A stretch of 64,000 nucleotides of DNA from Candidatus Melainabacteria bacterium (GTDB taxonomy: Bacteria; Cyanobacteriota; Vampirovibrionia; Obscuribacterales; Obscuribacteraceae). The notes under the pieces were generated by a model, which saw only the letters and a program-made list of their open reading frames with translations, was not told the DNA's origin and searched no databases. Within the stretch, counting starts at the first letter, position 1. Every line of letters starts with the position of its first letter. Shown here piece after piece: positions 6,442 to 42,224 of this stretch. Location of the stretch: contig RXJR01000015.1 in the NCBI GenBank assembly GCA_003963305.1, forward strand, positions 62,001 through 126,000. Reading direction: 5' to 3'. A program made the translations under genes and the position numbers.

Positions 6442-7257
6442 TTATTTCGCGTGTGACGAGAGCTCAGCTAGAGTTTTCTTTGCGTTCGACTGGACGAACA
6501 TATTTTCGTCATCGAGCAACAACGCAAGAATTTCAGGCGGAATCTTAGGGTTGTTTGCCAGCCCAAGGCGAACATCTTCGCTTGAGTCTTTCGCTAATCG
6601 CTCTAGCACCAATGGCGGTGCCTTAGGATTTTCTGATACGGCAAGTCTAACATCAGGATGATCGTCACTTGCCAGGCGCAAAAGCACTTCAGCTGGAGTT
6701 TCTGGATTCTCCGCCACTCGAGCACGCACTTTTACAGTCGTATCGTCAGCCAACTTTGTCAGCACCATAGGAGATGTGTGAGGATTGCCGGCAAGCACAT
6801 AATGCACATGAGCCTGAGCTGTTGGATCAGCCTTGGCGTCCTTAGCTTCGCCGTCTGTGTTCAATTCATAAATGGACTTGACCAGCGCCGTCAAATTCTG
6901 TGCAGTCACAGGCTTCGCCAGATAGTAGTTCATTTTCAATTTCAACGCTTCAAGCACATCCTCATCGCGCTGTGATACGGTCAAGAGCACAACCGGAATT
7001 TTAGACAAGTCTTTGTCTGATTGAACATCAGCGAGCACTTCATGACCATTCTTTCTTGGCATATTGAGGTCCAAGAGAATCAAATCAGGCAGTTTCTGCC
7101 CGCCATTCTTACGCTCATTGAGGTAGTCCATAGCCTCGACGCCGTCGTTAACAACGGACATCGTGTACTTCAATCCGGATCTCTTGAGAGCCTCCTGGGT
7201 CAAACGGACATCACTAGGTGTGTCCTCGACCAGAAGTAATTCGATGTTATTTTCCAT
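6442..7257 (-). CDS. Receiver domain fused to LRV (leucine-rich variant) repeats
   Basis: 271 aa. Residues 1-135 form an Rcp1-like receiver (LLLVEDTPSD; phospho-acceptor Asp63 in LLDLNMP; conserved Lys in YLAKPV). Residues of about 150-265 are about five 24-residue repeats of the form VAENPxTPxxVLxxLAxDxxxxVR, typical of LRV repeats. LRV arrays form curved all-helical scaffolds, so the output is probably protein binding rather than DNA binding. The start overlaps the end of the hybrid kinase upstream by 11 bases. The two are surely co-expressed, and the kinase is the likely phosphodonor. Receivers of this class usually pair with phytochrome-type kinases of the SHDLQEPLR kind found next door. 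Confidence 0.85.
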   Translation of the reverse strand: MENNIELLLVEDTPSDVRLTQEALKRSGLKYTMSVVNDGVEAMDYLNERKNGGQKLPDLILLDLNMPRKNGHEVLADVQSDKDLSKIPVVLLTVSQRDEDVLEALKLKMNYYLAKPVTAQNLTALVKSIYELNTDGEAKDAKADPTAQAHVHYVLAGNPHTSPMVLTKLADDTTVKVRARVAENPETPAEVLLRLASDDHPDVRLAVSENPKAPPLVLERLAKDSSEDVRLGLANNPKIPPEILALLLDDENMFVQSNAKKTLAELSSHAK

Positions 7258-32579: not shown

Positions 32580-33018
32580 GTGCTTGTTGTCATCCCTTTA
32601 GACCGCAACTCTGCTGCAGTAATTTTTCGCTTGCAGATATGATATCAGGAGAACTCTGCAGTTCCGCGCCTGGTAACAAAATGAAGACACGAACAAATCA
32701 AACTTTTCCCTCAACACTTAAAGGGCTCTGGTAAAAACCGTCTGACAATGATGAGATGCCAGAGTCAGCCATGCAATAACAACTGTGCAAATCGACTCAC
32801 TGTTGAGCCAGCGCTGCTGCACTTCAACACCACATGCGGTGCATGACTTCAACTCAAATCTTCATGCCAACCGGTTACTCAACTGTTCCAGGTTCAAAAC
32901 ACCATGGGAGGTTCCAACATCGTAACAGGCACACTTTTTAACTCTTTGGTAGCAAAATGTTGTTCTTCTCGAAATATTAGACGTAGAATATATCTTGGAG
33001 CTTAATCGCGGAACGAGA
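32580..33018. other. 439-bp intergenic region without a gene
   Basis: It holds the leader of the 32579 zinc-ribbon gene, a small hairpin (GAACT-CTGC-AGTTC at 32651-32664) and a perfect CACCA-type palindrome at 32828-32841. The remaining sequence carries stops in all frames and no credible small gene. Promoters for both flanking genes must lie here, but no convincing -35/-10 pair was seen. Confidence 0.5.
32828..32841. repeat. CACCA-N4-YGGTG palindrome, copy 7
   Basis: CACCACATGCGGTG, the best match to the CATG-centred subtype. It lies mid-intergenic, 191 bases before the receiver gene. Confidence 0.6.
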
Positions 33019-33423
33019 ATGGAAAAACCAGCAATCCTAGTAGTCGAAGATCACGTCATCGAACAAAAACTGCTCTTCCTCCTGGCCAAGAAGTACGGGT
33101 ACGATGTACAAATCGTTTCAAGCTCAGAAGAAGCACTGAGCGAGATAGAGAAAGGTCGTCCGTTCGCTTTGATTTTGATGGACTGGAAACTGCCCGGCAG
33201 CGATGGGCTGACGTGCACCCAGCGAATACGCGAGCTGGAGCGCGACAAAGGTTACCATACGCCCATTGTCGCCATTACCGGTCGGGCCATGGACGGCGAC
33301 AAGAAAAAGTGCCTCGGTGCTGGTATGGATGACTACATGAGCAAACCATTTACTGCTGAAGAGTTCAGAGAAATGATCTGCAGATGGATTCCCGATGGTG
33401 GCGGCAAGCACGCCTCGCACTGA
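33019..33423 (+). CDS. Stand-alone receiver domain, second copy
   Basis: 134 aa from ATG 33019; an upstream TTG at 32995 adds eight residues without support. Receiver marks: ILVVEDHVIEQ, Asp55 in ILMDWKLPGSDG, VAITGRAMDGDKKKC, YMSKPF with the conserved Lys. It is paralogous to 31855-32241, with the same AMDGDK and GM(D/S)DYxSKPF surface, suggesting both serve the same kinase type. No output domain. Confidence 0.83.
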   Translation: MEKPAILVVEDHVIEQKLLFLLAKKYGYDVQIVSSSEEALSEIEKGRPFALILMDWKLPGSDGLTCTQRIRELERDKGYHTPIVAITGRAMDGDKKKCLGAGMDDYMSKPFTAEEFREMICRWIPDGGGKHASH

Positions 33424-34091: not shown

Positions 34092-35039
34092 ATGCCTAGA
34101 GCGATTTGGAGCGGAGTAATTAGCTTTGGACTTGTAAGCATTCCGGTTAAGCTGTACACGGCGACGGAAAGCAAGAGTCTGTCATTTCACCAGCTTCACG
34201 AAAAATGCAAGACCCGCATAAAGGAACAACGCTGGTGCCCTCACTGCGACAAGCAAGTAGACTACGATGAAATCGTCAAGGGCTTCGAGTACAGCAAGGG
34301 TGATTACGTTGTGGTGACCAGGGACGATCTGGAAGAGTTGCCACTGCCAAGCAAGAACATCATCAACATTAGTGCATTTATTAAGGCAGAAGAGATTGAT
34401 CCTCTTTATTTCAACGGCAGTTACTATCTCGAACCGGAAAAACTTGCCCAAAAGCCCTGCGCCCTGTTCATGCACGCCATGGAGGAGAAGGGAATGGTGG
34501 CGATAGGTACTCTGGCACTTCGCAACAAAGAACGGCTGTGCTCGCTCAGGGTGTTGGGCGGCAACCTCCTTGTAGAGATGTTGCTCTATCCCGACGAAAT
34601 AAGAGTAGACATGGACAAAAAATTGCCGGCAGCAAAATTGAGCAAACAAGAACTCTCTATGGCTTCTAGCTTGATTGATATGATGACACAAGATTTCCAG
34701 CCGGACGATTACGAGGACCACTACAGAGAGGCGCTACAGGCGCTAATCAAAGCCAAAATCGATGGCGATGAGACAATCGAGCAGCCGGAAGAAACCAAAC
34801 CAACGCGCGTTGTGGATTTGATGGAAGCGTTACGCGCCAGCGTCGAGAATGCAAAATCAAGTCGGTCGAAGAAATCGCCTCAAGCCGAAGAAGAAAAAGT
34901 GCTCAAATCAATTAAGCGCCAAACAGCAAGCAAGAAATCAGCAGATAAACAAGCACCTGCGAGAAAAGGCAGGCGCTCGACAGGATCTAAGCCTTCAGTA
35001 AAGAAGAAAGCTCCGGAGAAGAAAAGAGGAGCTGCATAA
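34092..35039 (+). CDS. ku: Ku protein for non-homologous end joining
   Basis: 315 aa. The bacterial Ku start is classic (MPRAIWSGVISFGLVSIPVK), followed by a CPHC zinc knuckle-like pair, GFEYSKGDYVVV, and the core to about residue 235. The last about 75 residues are Lys/Arg/Ser-rich (KSSRSKKSPQAEEEK, KKKAPEKKRGAA), the extended C-terminal DNA-binding tail seen in some Ku proteins. Ku dimers bind double-strand ends and recruit LigD. No LigD-type ligase is encoded in the window. Confidence 0.95.
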   Translation: MPRAIWSGVISFGLVSIPVKLYTATESKSLSFHQLHEKCKTRIKEQRWCPHCDKQVDYDEIVKGFEYSKGDYVVVTRDDLEELPLPSKNIINISAFIKAEEIDPLYFNGSYYLEPEKLAQKPCALFMHAMEEKGMVAIGTLALRNKERLCSLRVLGGNLLVEMLLYPDEIRVDMDKKLPAAKLSKQELSMASSLIDMMTQDFQPDDYEDHYREALQALIKAKIDGDETIEQPEETKPTRVVDLMEALRASVENAKSSRSKKSPQAEEEKVLKSIKRQTASKKSADKQAPARKGRRSTGSKPSVKKKAPEKKRGAA

Positions 35040-35089: not shown

Positions 35090-35812
35090 TTAGCTCATCG
35101 CTACTTTTCTGAGTGATACCCTGGCACGTTGATTGAACGACATAGGCATTTTCACAAGTGCCGGTGGGGCGATTCTATTGAGTGTACGCCTGGCTCTGTG
35201 TGCGACATAACAGTTCTCATCGGCGGCCAGCAACTGCAGTAATTCTTCACTCAAGTTGTGGTTTTCGGCCATTGAAAAGCGAACATCTGCATGCTCATCG
35301 TTGACCAGTATATTCAAAATCTCAACTGGTGTATTGATGTTTTCTGCCACAGCGATGCGAACGGCTGGTGATGCGTGTCCGGCTAGCCGCGCCAGTGTAG
35401 AAGGTGCGGCGTTAGGATTCTCGGCGATACGCTCAGCAAAAACCGAGCTATCGACACTGGCCAACACGTCCAAAACAGCAGGACTTGTCTGCGGATTTTT
35501 GGCAATCATCCAACAAACTTTTGCGGCCAAATGATCTGACTCAGACACTTTAGATTGATCTGCATTATCGTCTGTCAACTCAACCAGACGCGCCCAAATC
35601 AACCTTCTCAGCAACAACTCTATATGTTCGGGCCAATCCCACTCCAGAAGATAGCTGTACGGAAAAGTGTCAGAGTCTGTTTCGGAATGTAGTATAACTG
35701 AATGCATTGTTTTAGCTCCCTCCCGCTCAACGCGGGTTCGTACGCCTGTTCCCGTTATATCACGAATTATTGACGCGAATCGGCTGCTGGTGCTGGATTC
35801 GGTCATATTCAT
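35090..35812 (-). CDS. LRV-repeat protein, 240 aa
   Basis: Residues of about 95-215 are LRV/HEAT-like repeats of 24 aa (AKNPQTSPAVLDVLASVDSSV, then AENPNAAPSTLARLAGHASPAVR, and so on), about five in number. They are closely similar to those fused to the receiver at 6442. The N-terminal 90 residues are unrelated and contain LLEWDWPEHIELLLRRLIW. No signal peptide. A protein-interaction scaffold is likely. The azotobacter LRV protein has an N-terminal iron-sulfur cysteine cluster; none is present here. Confidence 0.7.
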   Translation of the reverse strand: MNMTESSTSSRFASIIRDITGTGVRTRVEREGAKTMHSVILHSETDSDTFPYSYLLEWDWPEHIELLLRRLIWARLVELTDDNADQSKVSESDHLAAKVCWMIAKNPQTSPAVLDVLASVDSSVFAERIAENPNAAPSTLARLAGHASPAVRIAVAENINTPVEILNILVNDEHADVRFSMAENHNLSEELLQLLAADENCYVAHRARRTLNRIAPPALVKMPMSFNQRARVSLRKVAMS

Positions 35813-36165: not shown

Positions 36166-36690
36166 ATGGCGCAAACAGTTATCGGTTTAACAACCACCAT
36201 CGACCAAGCTGAATTATTGGTAGACAGACTGAAAACAGCCGGCTTTAGCAGCAACGACATATCAGTGCTATTGCCAGACAGAGAAGGTGCGCAAGATTTT
36301 GCTCACAAGAACACGACCAAGGCTCCTGAAGGCGCCACCACTGGTGCATCTACCGGCGGCGTGATTGGTGGAGCACTGGGTTGGTTGGCTGGTATTGGCG
36401 CGCTGGCGATACCCGGACTGGGCGCTTTCGTGGCGGCCGGACCAATCATGGCAGCGCTCAGCGGAGCCGCAGTCGGAGCCACCGTCGGCGGCGCAGCTGG
36501 TGCTCTCATCGGCTTGGGTATCCCCGAATATGAGGCAAAAATGTACGAAGGCAAAATTCGCGAAGGAAATATCCTCATAGCGGCACACAGCGACAGTAAA
36601 GATTTGCTGAAAGCAGCCGAGGAGATCTTTAAAGACCTGGGTGCAAAAGATGTTCATCGCACATCAGAAGCCAAAGTCGAAAAGAGATAG
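36166..36690 (+). CDS. General-stress glycine-zipper protein (YflT/DUF3341-like)
   Basis: 174 aa. An N-terminal ACT-like segment (TTTIDQAELLVDRLKTAGF, DISVLLPD) leads to a long Gly/Ala zipper region (about 60-125, GGVIGGALGWLAGIGALAIPG ... GAAVGATVGGAAGAL) able to insert in or coat membranes. It ends with GIPEYEAKMYEGKIREGNIL and a second small alpha/beta piece. Such proteins are widespread low-temperature or general-stress proteins of unknown mechanism. The ribosome site GGAGGATAA is strong, and a terminator follows. Confidence 0.75.
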   Translation: MAQTVIGLTTTIDQAELLVDRLKTAGFSSNDISVLLPDREGAQDFAHKNTTKAPEGATTGASTGGVIGGALGWLAGIGALAIPGLGAFVAAGPIMAALSGAAVGATVGGAAGALIGLGIPEYEAKMYEGKIREGNILIAAHSDSKDLLKAAEEIFKDLGAKDVHRTSEAKVEKR

Positions 36691-36807: not shown

Positions 36808-38298
36808 TCAACGTGCCGCTGTGCTTGGAGCAGCTACCGTATTTTCAGGTTCGGTAGCGACCGACTGCACTGATGTCACCACATGCGGTATCTCAAATCG
36901 GTCATTCTTCAATTTTGGCATAAGAATTGCCGGCATAGAGAATGAGATGAAGGATTGAAAGCAATTCATCCAGGTCTTGGCTCGCATCATGCGCATCCCT
37001 TCCACAACCTTACGAACAGTTGATTCGAGTTGCAGAAGATTGGCTACATATACAATTTGAGCTTCCGGTTTCACACGCTTGAAGTGATCTTTTACTTCTT
37101 GCGATACGCCGGCAGTAGAGACCACAAATGCCAACTTCGGTCTCTGCAAAGCTATTCTCGTGCCGAGAGAATAGGCATCACTCAAACCATATTCACTATC
37201 TTTGAGTTCGAAGAGAACAAGCGTGCCGTCTATATCTACAATAAATTCGACGTGATCAGAACCTTCCTCGGTGTGCAAAATTATCCGATCTGACGTTACG
37301 CCCAGACTATTGAGTAGCCTGACAACAGTAGCGGTCATCCAATAGTTGCTGTCCAGCATACTCTGTAAGGACTCATCGGCAGCCAGCAGACCTTCGATGG
37401 GCTCAGAAGCGATATTTTTTCCGCACGAGCACAAAACACCGAGCGCGCCCATTTGCTCAATAGTTTCGCGGCTTTCCACCCTGTTTACGTGTGCACCGGT
37501 TTTGGAGCACATGACTACATATTCTTGATGAACCAGATCGGCTTGCAATAGCTGATCGACATATTTGATCAACTCGCTTGCGTTCTCGGCCTTCTGCTTG
37601 AGCAACTCCTTAGCCAGGATTACACCCGAGCGGCGCACCAGCTGAGCGGTATCGCGGATGGCAGCATTTTCGAGAGCCTTGGCTGCTTTCAGGTCTTTCT
37701 CGCCAATCTTGGAAGCTAAATGATACGACTCATCGTGAGCCCCAACAATATCGTTGAACTGCTTGCTCTGCACAACATCGTTCGTCCAGACAATATCTAC
37801 ATTTTTCTCTTCGAAAGCTTTTGCCACCGCATCAGAGAATTCAAGTAAACTTCCTGTCTCATCGGGGTCGCCGATGAATCCGATGCGCAGCCTGCTGACG
37901 GTGTCTGGAGTAGGCTTCTGTTCTGTGCCTTTAGTGTAGTAGTCAACCATGGTAACGAACAGCAGTCCGGCTCCATCTTCACTGAAAAACACTTCGCCTC
38001 GAATCTCGGGCGTTTTTGTGGTGCCTTTGTGGCTCTCGAGACCGAAATCATATCCCAACTTTTCGAGGCTCATGAGTTTGCGCCGACCGAACTCACATTC
38101 CTTCTCCAGATCTTCGAGTTCGTCATCCTCTCCTGAGAGCGCTTCGTCACCGTTGCCACCAAAAGCCTGCGAAAAATTTTGCGCTGCTTTCCGCATCAGT
38201 GGTTCATAGCCGAGCCGCTCAAGACGGTCGATCAGGTTTTCAAAACTATCCGGAGAGTAGCTGAATGTCGCCGATCGGCTGTCAATAAAAAGATTCAT
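36808..38298 (-). CDS. Large protein with PD-(D/E)XK nuclease-like core and zinc-knuckle-like segment
   Basis: 496 aa, no family recognised. Residues 318-432 look like a restriction-endonuclease fold: a helix with NYWMTATVVRLLNSLGV, then strands VEFIVDIDG (Asp355 or 357) and TLVLFELKD (Glu364-Leu-Lys366), followed by LAFVVSTAGVSQEVKDHF. That is the D...ExK pattern. Before it, Cys264 and CSC at 290-292 may bind zinc. The N-terminal 250 residues include a basic/acidic helical part and a beta segment. It could be a Mrr-like nuclease, a repair factor, or an inactive relative. No methylase or other defence gene is adjacent. The C-terminal tail crosses a CACCA-type repeat. Confidence 0.6.
   Translation of the reverse strand: MNLFIDSRSATFSYSPDSFENLIDRLERLGYEPLMRKAAQNFSQAFGGNGDEALSGEDDELEDLEKECEFGRRKLMSLEKLGYDFGLESHKGTTKTPEIRGEVFFSEDGAGLLFVTMVDYYTKGTEQKPTPDTVSRLRIGFIGDPDETGSLLEFSDAVAKAFEEKNVDIVWTNDVVQSKQFNDIVGAHDESYHLASKIGEKDLKAAKALENAAIRDTAQLVRRSGVILAKELLKQKAENASELIKYVDQLLQADLVHQEYVVMCSKTGAHVNRVESRETIEQMGALGVLCSCGKNIASEPIEGLLAADESLQSMLDSNYWMTATVVRLLNSLGVTSDRIILHTEEGSDHVEFIVDIDGTLVLFELKDSEYGLSDAYSLGTRIALQRPKLAFVVSTAGVSQEVKDHFKRVKPEAQIVYVANLLQLESTVRKVVEGMRMMRAKTWMNCFQSFISFSMPAILMPKLKNDRFEIPHVVTSVQSVATEPENTVAAPSTAAR
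36877..36890. repeat. CACCA-N4 palindrome, copy 9
   Basis: CACCACATGCGGTA, one mismatch. It lies inside the C-terminal codons of the nuclease-like gene (IPHVVTS). Confidence 0.5.
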
Positions 38299-38484
38299 GA
38301 CCTATTCCCTCTTAAATCGTCGCTGATAGATTTGTTCCCCAACTGCACACTTACTATGCCGAAATCTGCGAGATTAATAGAAAGTTTCCGGCGACCGATA
38401 ACGATTATTCCCATTGACAACCACCCGTTTGGAACCGAGTAGCAGTGGTTTCCGTCGCAGCAAAGGTGAATGGAGGAATGGGAA

Positions 38485-39024
38485 ATGAACGCCAATAGTT
38501 TGAAAGGATGCCTGGCCATAGCTTTGACTGTCGCACTGCAACCTCTTTGTTTTGCCGACGACGCCGTCAGCACAACAACAGTCAAGACCGAAGGACCGCC
38601 AGTAGTGCTGGACAGTTACATGAAGCCCACGGTTGTGCAGACAAAAGAGACTACCGATGCCAACGGCAATGTAGAGAAATCGGTCGCGCCGATTATTCAA
38701 GAACGACATGAGCACGTCATGTTGCCTTCGAGCGAAACAACTACCACTATGACTGAGCACACGGGCACGAGCCAGACAGTCAAAACCGAGGCTACCGCAG
38801 TTGCGAGAAGCACCTTCCGCAGTGCCCCGCGGCGCAAGGTCGCGCACCGTGTACGACACCACCGCCGTGCTTGCGTAGCAGCTAAGCCGAAAAGTGTTGC
38901 CGTTGCTCAAAAGACGGTCGTAGAAAAAAAGGTTATCGAACCGACTGTGATTCAACGCCAGGATACGACTGTTGAAAAAGCAACTGTCATCGAACGCAAA
39001 GATCCAGCCTTGAACAACCAGTAA
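38485..39024 (+). CDS. Secreted Thr/Val-rich hypothetical protein, 179 aa
   Basis: ATG 38485 has GGAGG eight bases upstream, so the ATG five codons earlier is rejected. Signal peptide 1-24 ends in CFA-DD. The mature protein is Thr, Val and Lys rich, with repeated ETTTTMTEHT, KTVVEKKVIEPTVI and TTVEKATVIERKD segments, and a basic patch (RSAPRRKVAHRVRHHRR) in the middle. It looks disordered and extracellular. No family is recognised. Confidence 0.6.
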   Translation: MNANSLKGCLAIALTVALQPLCFADDAVSTTTVKTEGPPVVLDSYMKPTVVQTKETTDANGNVEKSVAPIIQERHEHVMLPSSETTTTMTEHTGTSQTVKTEATAVARSTFRSAPRRKVAHRVRHHRRACVAAKPKSVAVAQKTVVEKKVIEPTVIQRQDTTVEKATVIERKDPALNNQ

Positions 39025-39383: not shown

Positions 39384-39684
39384 ACAAGTAAGGGCATAGC
39401 AGTAGAAACTTAGAACAGAAGAACAACTCCAGAACAACGAGTCTCTGGAAGACAACGAGTCTCTGATTGCCACAGGTGCAAACCTTCACCAGGCTTTCAG
39501 GGGCTCTTTAATATTTATAAGCCATAGCCCAGACGGATAAGAAATGCCGTGCCACGCAGTACTTGGAGTATTTTGCGCATAAATTGCCAGGCTCCTCGCC
39601 AACCTCCAACCTCTTGATAATTGTTGAAAATGACACGCTGTTGCCACGGAGATGAGTTATATTCAGATCATAGGGAAGAGAATA
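39384..39684. other. 301-bp intergenic region with an 18-bp tandem duplication
   Basis: ACAACGAGTCTCTG occurs at 39434-39447 and again at 39452-39465, an 18-base period. The rest has no gene I can support. It should hold the promoter of the triple-PAS pair. Confidence 0.4.
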
Positions 39685-40959
39685 ATGTTGCAACACGAGC
39701 GGCCAGACCTGAAAGAGCAGCTTGAACAGCGTATTGCGGAACTCGAAAACGAGCTCCGTATGCTGGAAAGCGACATCGAATATGCACCTGCATCCACTGA
39801 AAGCAACATAGGCACAGAGTATCGCAGCAGTCTGGAACGTTTCCTCGCCGCCGACTCCATCGCTATAATCCGCGCCAGCCTGGCCGGCGCCATACTGGAT
39901 GTGAACCAGGCCTTCACTGACATGCTCGGATACACCAGAGAGGAAGCCCTGTCGGGTGCCTTGCAGTGGACAGAAATCACTCCACCGGAGTGGATACCAC
40001 ACGACGAACTGGCTAAAGAGCAGATTTTGCAAACAGGCAATGCCGCACCTTATGAAAAAGAACTTGTCCATAAAGACGGGCACAAAGTGCCGGTGATGCT
40101 GGCTGTTGGCGGCGCTGACCCAAACGGAGAAGACTGCTTCTGTCTGTTTGTCGACATGTCGGAGCAGAAGCGCAAAGAAGCCGAGCTCAAGTTGACCGAA
40201 GCGCAATTCAGGTTACTGGCGGAATCTATCCCGCAAATGGTGTTCACAGTCGGTGCAGACGGCACAACAGACTATTTCAACAAGCGTTGGGGCGAACTGA
40301 CCGGTTTTCAACCAACACGAGGATTTGAGAAAACGTGGCACGAACTATGCCACCCAGACGACGTTCAGCGCGTGCAAGAGCACTGGGACGTTGCCCAGGC
40401 CAACAAAAGCGTCGTCGAAATTGAATCGAGATACAAACGAAAAGACGGCACTTTCGCATGGGCGATGCAACGAGCTTATCCTCTCATTGCTGAAGACGGC
40501 AGCATTGCGAAGTGGTTCGGCACTCTCACCGACATAGACGATCAGAAACGAGCCGAAGAAGAGATAAGAGCCAGCGAAGTCCGCTTTCGCACACTGGCTG
40601 ACGCCATTCCACAAATTGTCTGGACGGCCGACGCGAGCGGGCAAATCGACTTCTTCAATAACCGCTGGTTTGAATATACCGGTCTGACCATTGAGCAAAG
40701 CCTGGATGACGGTTGGAAGCTTTTGATCCACCCGGACGACCTGCCGCTGTATGTCAAAGAATGGGAGAACGCCATCGAAACAGGCGACACCTACGAGGTA
40801 AATTTCAGACTGCGTCGAGCCGTTGGGGTAAAGAACGGCTCAAAGAATCAATACAGACGGCATTTGGGCCGCGCTGTTGCCTTAAGGGGCAAAAATGGGC
40901 AAGTAACTAAATGGTTCGCCACGTGGACTGAGATCGAACATCAAGGGACGAACGAATAG
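39685..40959 (+). CDS. Triple-PAS protein without output domain (A)
   Basis: 424 aa from ATG 39685 (GGGAAGAG upstream; the ATG at 39652 has a site too close). A short coiled coil (DLKEQLEQRIAELENELRML) is followed by three PAS domains at about 45-170, 175-300 and 305-420. Two carry PAC ends (DMSEQKRKEAE, LTDIDDQKRAEEE). No HisKA, HATPase, GGDEF or DNA-binding domain follows; the chain stops two residues after the third PAC. It is cytoplasmic. It is presumably a ligand-sensing partner of some kinase. The paralogous gene B starts three bases after its stop. Confidence 0.85.
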   Translation: MLQHERPDLKEQLEQRIAELENELRMLESDIEYAPASTESNIGTEYRSSLERFLAADSIAIIRASLAGAILDVNQAFTDMLGYTREEALSGALQWTEITPPEWIPHDELAKEQILQTGNAAPYEKELVHKDGHKVPVMLAVGGADPNGEDCFCLFVDMSEQKRKEAELKLTEAQFRLLAESIPQMVFTVGADGTTDYFNKRWGELTGFQPTRGFEKTWHELCHPDDVQRVQEHWDVAQANKSVVEIESRYKRKDGTFAWAMQRAYPLIAEDGSIAKWFGTLTDIDDQKRAEEEIRASEVRFRTLADAIPQIVWTADASGQIDFFNNRWFEYTGLTIEQSLDDGWKLLIHPDDLPLYVKEWENAIETGDTYEVNFRLRRAVGVKNGSKNQYRRHLGRAVALRGKNGQVTKWFATWTEIEHQGTNE

Positions 40960-40961
40960 CC

Positions 40962-42224
40962 ATGACGGCCAGCGACACATCGGCAAGATCCTCCGAACTG
41001 CTTTTGCTGCGGGCGAAGATTTTTGAATTGGAAACGCGGGTTGAGCGCGCCAAGCTGCAAAGAAAACTGAAAAGCACCGGCTTTAAAGATTTTACCGATC
41101 TGGATCGGCTGCGGCGCTTCGTTGACTCCAACATCGTGGCAATCCATCGGGCAGATATATACGGAAATATAACTGAAGCAAACGACGCAACCGTGAAGTT
41201 GCTGGGCTACAGCAAAGATGAACTGTATTCGGGCCGAGTGAAGTGGACTGATTTCACCCCTCCCGAATATCTGCACATGGATGATAAAGCGATAGTCCAG
41301 CTGCGCACCACAGGACGAACACCGTTCTACCGAAAAGAATACATTCGCAGCGACGGCACCAGAATTCCAGCGCTGGTGCAAGTGACCGCCATCAACAGCG
41401 AAGCAACAGACTGCTTCACAGTCGTCTTCGACCTGACTGAAATGGAAAAATTGGAGCGACAGCTAAGGGAGAGCGAGAACCAATTTCGTTTATTGGCTGA
41501 AGCGATACCGCACATCGTCTGGATGTGCGATCCATCCGGAAAAATCGCCTACGCAAATCAAAGATGGTTTGACTTCACTGGACTCTCAACTGAAGATCAC
41601 GAACGGAAATGGCTTTCCGTGCTTCATCCTGACGATAGACGACTTTGCCTGGAAGAAGCGGAACGAGCATTTCGCACCGACACAACTTTCAACATGGAAA
41701 TCAGATATCGTGCTGCAAATGGTTCATACGTGTGGCACCTGGTGCGAGCTCAGACAATAACTGATCCGCGAACCGGAGAAAAAATCTGGTTCGGCACAAG
41801 CACAGATATTGACGATAAAAAACGAGCCGCAGAAGAAATCAAAGAGAGCGAAATGAGATATCGCATGCTCGCCGATGCGATACCACAGATAGTGTTCACA
41901 GCAGATGCAGCCGGCGAGATCGATTTTTTCAATGACAGATGGTTTGAATACACCGGATTGTCGCTGGCACAGAGCCAGAACAATGGCTGGCAATTACTGA
42001 TTCACCCTGACGATCTTGATAAGTACATGGCTGAATGGAACCGCTCTCTTGCAACCGGAGACAGCCACGAAATCGAATTCAGATTGCGCCGCGCAGTAGG
42101 TGTGAAGACGATGAAAAACCACGCCTATCGCTCCCACCTCGCCCGGGCAGTAGCCTTACGAGGTACGGACGGTGAAGTGATTAAGTGGTTCGCCACCTGG
42201 ACAGAAATTGAAGGTACTAAGTAA
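40962..42224 (+). CDS. Triple-PAS protein without output domain (B)
   Basis: 420 aa with the same plan as protein A: N-terminal coiled coil (SSELLLLRAKIFELETRVE), then three PAS domains, with WFDFTGLSTEDHERKW and WFEYTGLSLAQSQNNGW as the cores of the second and third. It ends in FATWTEIEGTK, nearly the same as A (FATWTEIEHQG), so the pair arose by tandem duplication. No output domain follows. Co-transcription with A is certain from the spacing. Hetero-oligomers through PAS and coiled-coil contacts are a reasonable inference. Confidence 0.85.
   Translation: MTASDTSARSSELLLLRAKIFELETRVERAKLQRKLKSTGFKDFTDLDRLRRFVDSNIVAIHRADIYGNITEANDATVKLLGYSKDELYSGRVKWTDFTPPEYLHMDDKAIVQLRTTGRTPFYRKEYIRSDGTRIPALVQVTAINSEATDCFTVVFDLTEMEKLERQLRESENQFRLLAEAIPHIVWMCDPSGKIAYANQRWFDFTGLSTEDHERKWLSVLHPDDRRLCLEEAERAFRTDTTFNMEIRYRAANGSYVWHLVRAQTITDPRTGEKIWFGTSTDIDDKKRAAEEIKESEMRYRMLADAIPQIVFTADAAGEIDFFNDRWFEYTGLSLAQSQNNGWQLLIHPDDLDKYMAEWNRSLATGDSHEIEFRLRRAVGVKTMKNHAYRSHLARAVALRGTDGEVIKWFATWTEIEGTK

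Follow-up and report, generated by a model that had tools for sequence, protein, structure and literature searches.

Introduction

The described proteins that come closest to the protein discussed here, in terms of the fold of its C-terminal domain, are mostly nucleases. According to PMC7343888, catalysis in EndoMS depends on D165, E179 and K181, and in NucS on D160, E174 and K176. In the CARF nucleases VC1899, Can2 and Card1 (DUF1887), the nuclease domain is located C-terminal to a large N-terminal part. On the other hand, in RPB5 a PD-(D/E)XK-like fold serves without catalysis, within RNA polymerase.

The window analyzed here is a stretch of 64,000 nucleotides from a Candidatus Melainabacteria bacterium of the family Obscuribacteraceae (contig RXJR01000015.1). 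It contains a gene for a 496-aa protein, which a first-pass annotation of the DNA had described as an unrecognized protein with a nuclease-like core and a possible role in defense or repair. This protein belongs to a new small family of known fold that is without library annotation, and, as judged from the modeled domain, it most likely acts on nucleic acid. Three parts are proposed: an acidic N-terminal region, a probable zinc-binding Cys/His module and, at the C-terminus, a domain predicted to have the PD-(D/E)XK fold. The coordinates of these features are given in Table 1.

Table 1. Features of the 496-codon gene, with positions in the window and the evidence for each.
Feature	Position	Strand	Evidence
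Complete gene, 496 codons and stop	36808..38298	minus	ORF, orthologues, codon statistics
N-terminal part, residues 1-250	37549..38298	minus	Sequence and low-confidence full-length model
Residues 251-305, most conserved stretch, with Cys264/His270/Cys290/Cys292 as putative metal ligands	37384..37548	minus	Orthologue comparison
Predicted PD-(D/E)XK-fold domain, residues 302-440	36979..37395	minus	AlphaFold model and structural matches
Glu351 in strand 2, candidate for the first catalytic acid	37246..37248	minus	Hairpin register, EndoMS/NucS ranges; kept in 4/4
Asp355-Ile356-Asp357, from the end of strand 2 into the tight turn	37228..37236	minus	Model; Asp357 is Gly in G015
Glu364, proposed second catalytic acid, strand 3	37207..37209	minus	Model; Gly in G015
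Lys366, putative catalytic lysine position	37201..37203	minus	Model; Gln in G015
Variable C-terminal tail, residues 446-496	36811..36963	minus	Orthologue comparison

The Gene, Its Orthologues and Their Distribution

The open reading frame starts with an ATG at 38298 and runs on the minus strand to 36808, with 496 codons and a GC content of 0.575, 0.371 and 0.520 at the first, second and third codon positions, respectively. Locally, the gene is alone on its strand, as the flanking genes at 36166-36690 and 38470-39024 are both on the plus strand. No operon partner was found for it, and the number of promoter-like sites in the region (two) equals the 2.0 expected from shuffled sequences. Three full-length orthologues are available, G001 (88% identity), G002 (83%) and G015 (43%), and the gene is carried by four of the 50 genomes of the taxonomic family, three of them in this genus and one (G015) in another genus. 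Between the same-genus copies, non-synonymous change amounts to 0.08-0.13 per site, and synonymous sites are close to saturation or beyond it. The orthologues, the GC content by codon position and the low non-synonymous relative to synonymous change together indicate, at the level of sequence, that the gene is real rather than a chance reading frame and that it is under strong purifying selection.

A fifth match in the family (G035, 10.2 bits, E 0.87) was attributed to chance. In a search of 386 genomes of the phylum, six matches were obtained at E ≤ 0.1 including the window's own genome, and the other five were fragmentary and scored 11-13 bits. In 382 genomes of the class, nine matches were obtained at the same threshold, of which four were already known and five scored 13-16 bits. 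One of these five lies, by eye, inside an ATPase-like ORF, and another has no same-strand ORF of at least 80 aa across the match. The phylum and class sets overlap the 50 family genomes and gave no convincing further member. In plasmids and phages, no homologue was found at E 1, and when the cut-off was relaxed to E 10, four weak plasmid matches appeared (best E 0.2), in unrelated proteins; the viral contigs searched also gave no homologue. Other phyla were covered by one contig scan with short exact peptides, which would miss distant relatives. As far as searched, the family is therefore restricted to this lineage on the basis of sequence similarity. At listing level, the literature searched on this lineage showed nothing on the 496-aa protein. 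A comparison using acetate kinase as a marker gave no answer as to whether the genus of G015 is the closest relative.

In terms of known sequence families, the sole Pfam match of the protein was to DUF2529 and did not reach the cut-off (E 0.0058), and the NCBIfam, PHROGs and PDB-sequence searches gave no meaningful match. The core had initially been compared to Mrr-type endonucleases, an assignment that is not supported: the Pfam Mrr family (PF04471) has no match in the full protein at E ≤ 10 and none in any of the four domain sequences, and the only PF04471 (Mrr_cat) match in the window genome, a clear one, is located elsewhere, on contig 2.

The orthologues also differ in length. In G015, the reading frame continues for about 450 low-complexity residues, whereas the window copy stops after a tail of 50 residues. 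In this extension (L006:1082-1431), an 18-base unit is repeated about 19 times with 90% matches, encoding a Gln-Gln-Ala-Ala-Pro-Val/Met repeat.

Fold of the C-Terminal Domain

Residues 302-440 were modeled alone with AlphaFold using the four sequences, resulting in a pLDDT of 79.9 and a pTM of 0.74. The predicted elements are a helix (320-331), three strands (339-343, 349-356 and 359-366), a helix (372-385), a strand (389-394), a helix (400-409), a strand (414-418) and then another helix. This order matches the definition of the PD-(D/E)XK core in PMC9635880 and PMC4103454. The best Foldseek match of the domain model in the PDB is the restriction enzyme EcoT38I (7e8r), with an E of 3e-4. In VIA-align, where matches up to 1 Z apart were taken as tied, the Z scores are 10.3 for VC1899 (rmsd 3.6, 117 residues aligned), 9.6 for EndoMS (3.4, 99), 9.5 for Can2 (3.5, 111), 9.4 for EcoT38I (3.1, 112) and 8.4 for NucS (3.2, 93), and many RPB5 chains are among the matches with a Z of about 9. 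With a confident domain model and these structural neighbors, the C-terminal domain very probably has the PD-(D/E)XK fold. This agrees with the fold call of the first-pass annotation, including the helix (320-331) that was said to precede the strands.

Putative Active Site

In the model, strands 349-356 and 359-366 are joined by Asp357-Gly358, which places residue 351 opposite residue 364. Asp355, Asp357, Glu364 and Lys366 sit at the positions reported for them in the first-pass annotation. They had all been placed in strands, which applies to Glu364 and Lys366 in strand 3, but Asp357 is in the turn and Asp355 close to where its strand ends. The two aspartates had also been taken as catalytic acids, probably wrongly, as Glu351 is the residue that faces Glu364 in the model; Asp355 and Asp357 probably have a structural role. 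The likely triad in the model is Glu351/Glu364/Lys366.

Glu351 is proposed as the first acid because it faces Glu364 in the hairpin and because a comparison of aligned ranges with EndoMS and NucS agrees with this choice. The range ends of the EndoMS alignment (model 16-122 on 131-238) give an offset of 115-116, by which Glu351, Glu364 and Lys366 correspond to 165-166, 178-179 and 180-181, respectively. For NucS (model 17-122 on 126-233), the equivalents are 159-161, 172-174 and 174-176, both mappings being read from the ends of aligned ranges and not from a residue-level alignment. The chance of an acid lying opposite an acid-x-Lys motif at one fixed register is 0.0015, a rough value from the protein's own composition. 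The helix-1 glutamate of the NucS type (E127) and the helix-2 Gln/Tyr pair (Q187/Y191 in NucS) were not found at the positions predicted by the offset.

The triad is complete in three of the four sequences, and the fourth, G015, has Glu/Gly/Gln. In this orthologue, Glu364 is replaced by Gly, Lys366 by Gln and Asp357 by Gly, and Glu351 and Asp355 are retained. The Glu/Lys pair, on whose conservation the nuclease assignment had been made to depend, is thus kept within the genus and lost in the sole divergent homologue. Judged by these residues, the G015 protein can hardly cut by the PD-(D/E)XK mechanism. The conservation within the genus says little about any single residue, since in this domain the two orthologues share 94 and 88% identity with the window copy. 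Between the window copy and G015, 66 of the 139 domain residues are identical. At this level of identity, losing two particular residues would not be improbable by itself; a working enzyme, however, should keep its catalytic residues.

Cys/His Module and N-Terminal Region

Ahead of the nuclease-like core, a Cys-rich knuckle had been noted, and this is well supported by the orthologues: Cys264, Cys290 and Cys292, together with His270, are retained in all four, and the other cysteines, 68 and 446, are lost in G015. Over residues 254-303, 34 of 50 positions are identical to the G015 orthologue. Within the genus, non-synonymous change is lowest in residues 251-305 (0.008-0.032 per site), compared to 0.056-0.092 in residues 306-445. 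In the aligned orthologues, the putative Cys/His module is the part common to all family members.

Less can be said about the N-terminal region. Residues 1-200 are acidic (pI 4.5), and the full-length AlphaFold model has a pLDDT of 43.8, a best Foldseek E of 0.12 and meaningless PDB matches. For the N-terminal part of this low-confidence model, the best VIA-align Z is 7.0 (residues 2-177), a weak hint of a ferredoxin-like fold for residues 1-178.

In this genus, Glu351 and Glu364 would face each other on the central hairpin with Lys366 two residues further on, giving a complete-looking metal site. The domain would most likely bind nucleic acid and cut it with Mg2+ or Mn2+, as EndoMS/NucS and Can2 do, and the Cys/His module and the N-terminal region would provide recognition of a substrate or a partner. 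In G015, the overall sequence of the domain would have been kept while Glu364 and Lys366 of the triad were lost, and this loss suggests that cutting is not needed for the function common to all members. The gene, the predicted fold and the residue pattern with its loss in G015 are observations, and metal binding, DNA binding, cleavage and any cellular role are inferences. The probability of an active nuclease domain in this genus falls slightly short of an even chance.

The same observations may also describe a non-catalytic member of the fold, in which the domain is a nucleic-acid- or protein-binding scaffold, the work is done by the Cys/His module and the Glu-x-Lys motif is a relic or a coincidence. 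This is a serious possibility, if still a minority one. It is consistent with the loss of Glu364 and Lys366 in G015 while Cys264, His270, Cys290 and Cys292 are kept in four of four sequences, with the low rate of change of residues 251-305 within the genus and with the frequent RPB5 chains among the structural matches. In addition, with a pI of 5.35-6.1 the domain is slightly acidic and not basic, unlike the usual DNA-gripping surface. However, it would be a remarkable coincidence for all three residues to be correctly placed in the fold in each sequence of the genus (three of three), and G015 is a single divergent sequence, for which a loss in its lineage alone is equally possible.

Genomic Neighborhood

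The Ku gene at 34092-35039, 1.8 kb from the 496-codon gene, brings in the possibility of a nuclease of Ku-dependent end joining. The first-pass annotation had pointed to this neighborhood. Ku is indeed present in the window, but it adjoins the gene in only two of the four loci (window and G001) and is absent from the 20-kb stretches of G002 and G015. Moreover, Ku is found in 31 of the 50 family genomes, 27 of which are without the gene, and the window genome has more than one Ku match, which makes a role in end joining very improbable. The Ku matches of this genome (G000) are three in number, on contigs 15, 16 and 28, and one of them is partial. A stress-protein neighbor had been mentioned as well; a YflT-like protein is encoded at 36166-36690, and it indicates nothing specific for function.

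Neighbors are kept in all four genomes, with a CheY-like regulator to one side of the gene and two PAS-domain proteins to the other. Identity of the regulator (32995-33423) reaches 94-96% between the copies of this genus and 80% for the G015 copy, so that it has changed much less than the gene. In the 50 family genomes, no other match to it exceeds about 52% identity, and regulators of this close form occur in the four gene-carrying genomes alone. The PAS-domain proteins (39652-42224) are adjacent, similar to each other and paired in all four genomes. In the first of the two, the one scanned with Pfam, PAS domains were the sole matches, without a kinase or another output domain. No methyltransferase partner was present among the neighbors scanned.

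A defense nuclease against phages, either Mrr/type IV-like or a messenger-activated effector like Card1/Can2, would fit the close structural match of the domain to VC1899 and Can2 and the sparse distribution over four of 50 family genomes. It is nevertheless an improbable explanation: PADLOC has no match for the 496-aa protein at E up to 10 and only one weak match, ZorF-like (E 1.6e-4), among 10 neighboring proteins. Csm1-type Cas10 (TIGR02578, E 0.01) was matched in none of the four carrier genomes, in the parts present. Also, the gene lies among the same neighbors in four of four genomes and does not move around, and none was seen in the phages, plasmids and viral contigs searched. The suggested role in defense or repair is thus not supported, with no PADLOC match, no convincing defense neighbor and no conserved Ku neighbor. 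The protein behind the ZorF-like match is a leucine-rich-variant/HEAT-like repeat protein (35090-35812), whose orthologues also match a second ORF of the window (6442-7257).

Comparison with Known Systems

A wider reading is that of a protein family limited to one taxonomic family of non-photosynthetic Cyanobacteriota, with a zinc-type Cys/His module as its constant functional part and a nuclease domain that passes between active enzyme and dead scaffold. This is a speculative and rather unlikely reading; if true, one gene at a shared locus exists in its active state in one genus and in its dead state in another. A natural pair of this kind, with the site intact in one and lost in the other, would be informative on what such domains do after cutting ends. 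The impact is modest, given a common fold, a very small family and no evidence of a tie to defense or repair.

Compared to the described systems, EcoT38I (7e8r) is the best Foldseek match of the domain, yet with 11-12% identity. The N-terminal domain of RPB5 shares its fold with the window domain, with no sequence similarity found, and RPB5 is not known from bacteria. The window protein has the same arrangement as VC1899, Can2 and Card1, with the nuclease domain C-terminal to a large N-terminal part, but there is no sequence match to them and a CARF domain could not be made out in the low-confidence N-terminal model. No N-terminal domain of the NucS type is recognized in the window protein, and NucS is not known to have a Cys/His module. 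The C-terminal domain does share its fold with EndoMS (5gkj) and NucS (2vld), and Glu351/Glu364/Lys366 fall at D165/E179/K181 and D160/E174/K176, respectively, with a Glu in the window protein in place of the first Asp and a hairpin that is about one residue shorter.
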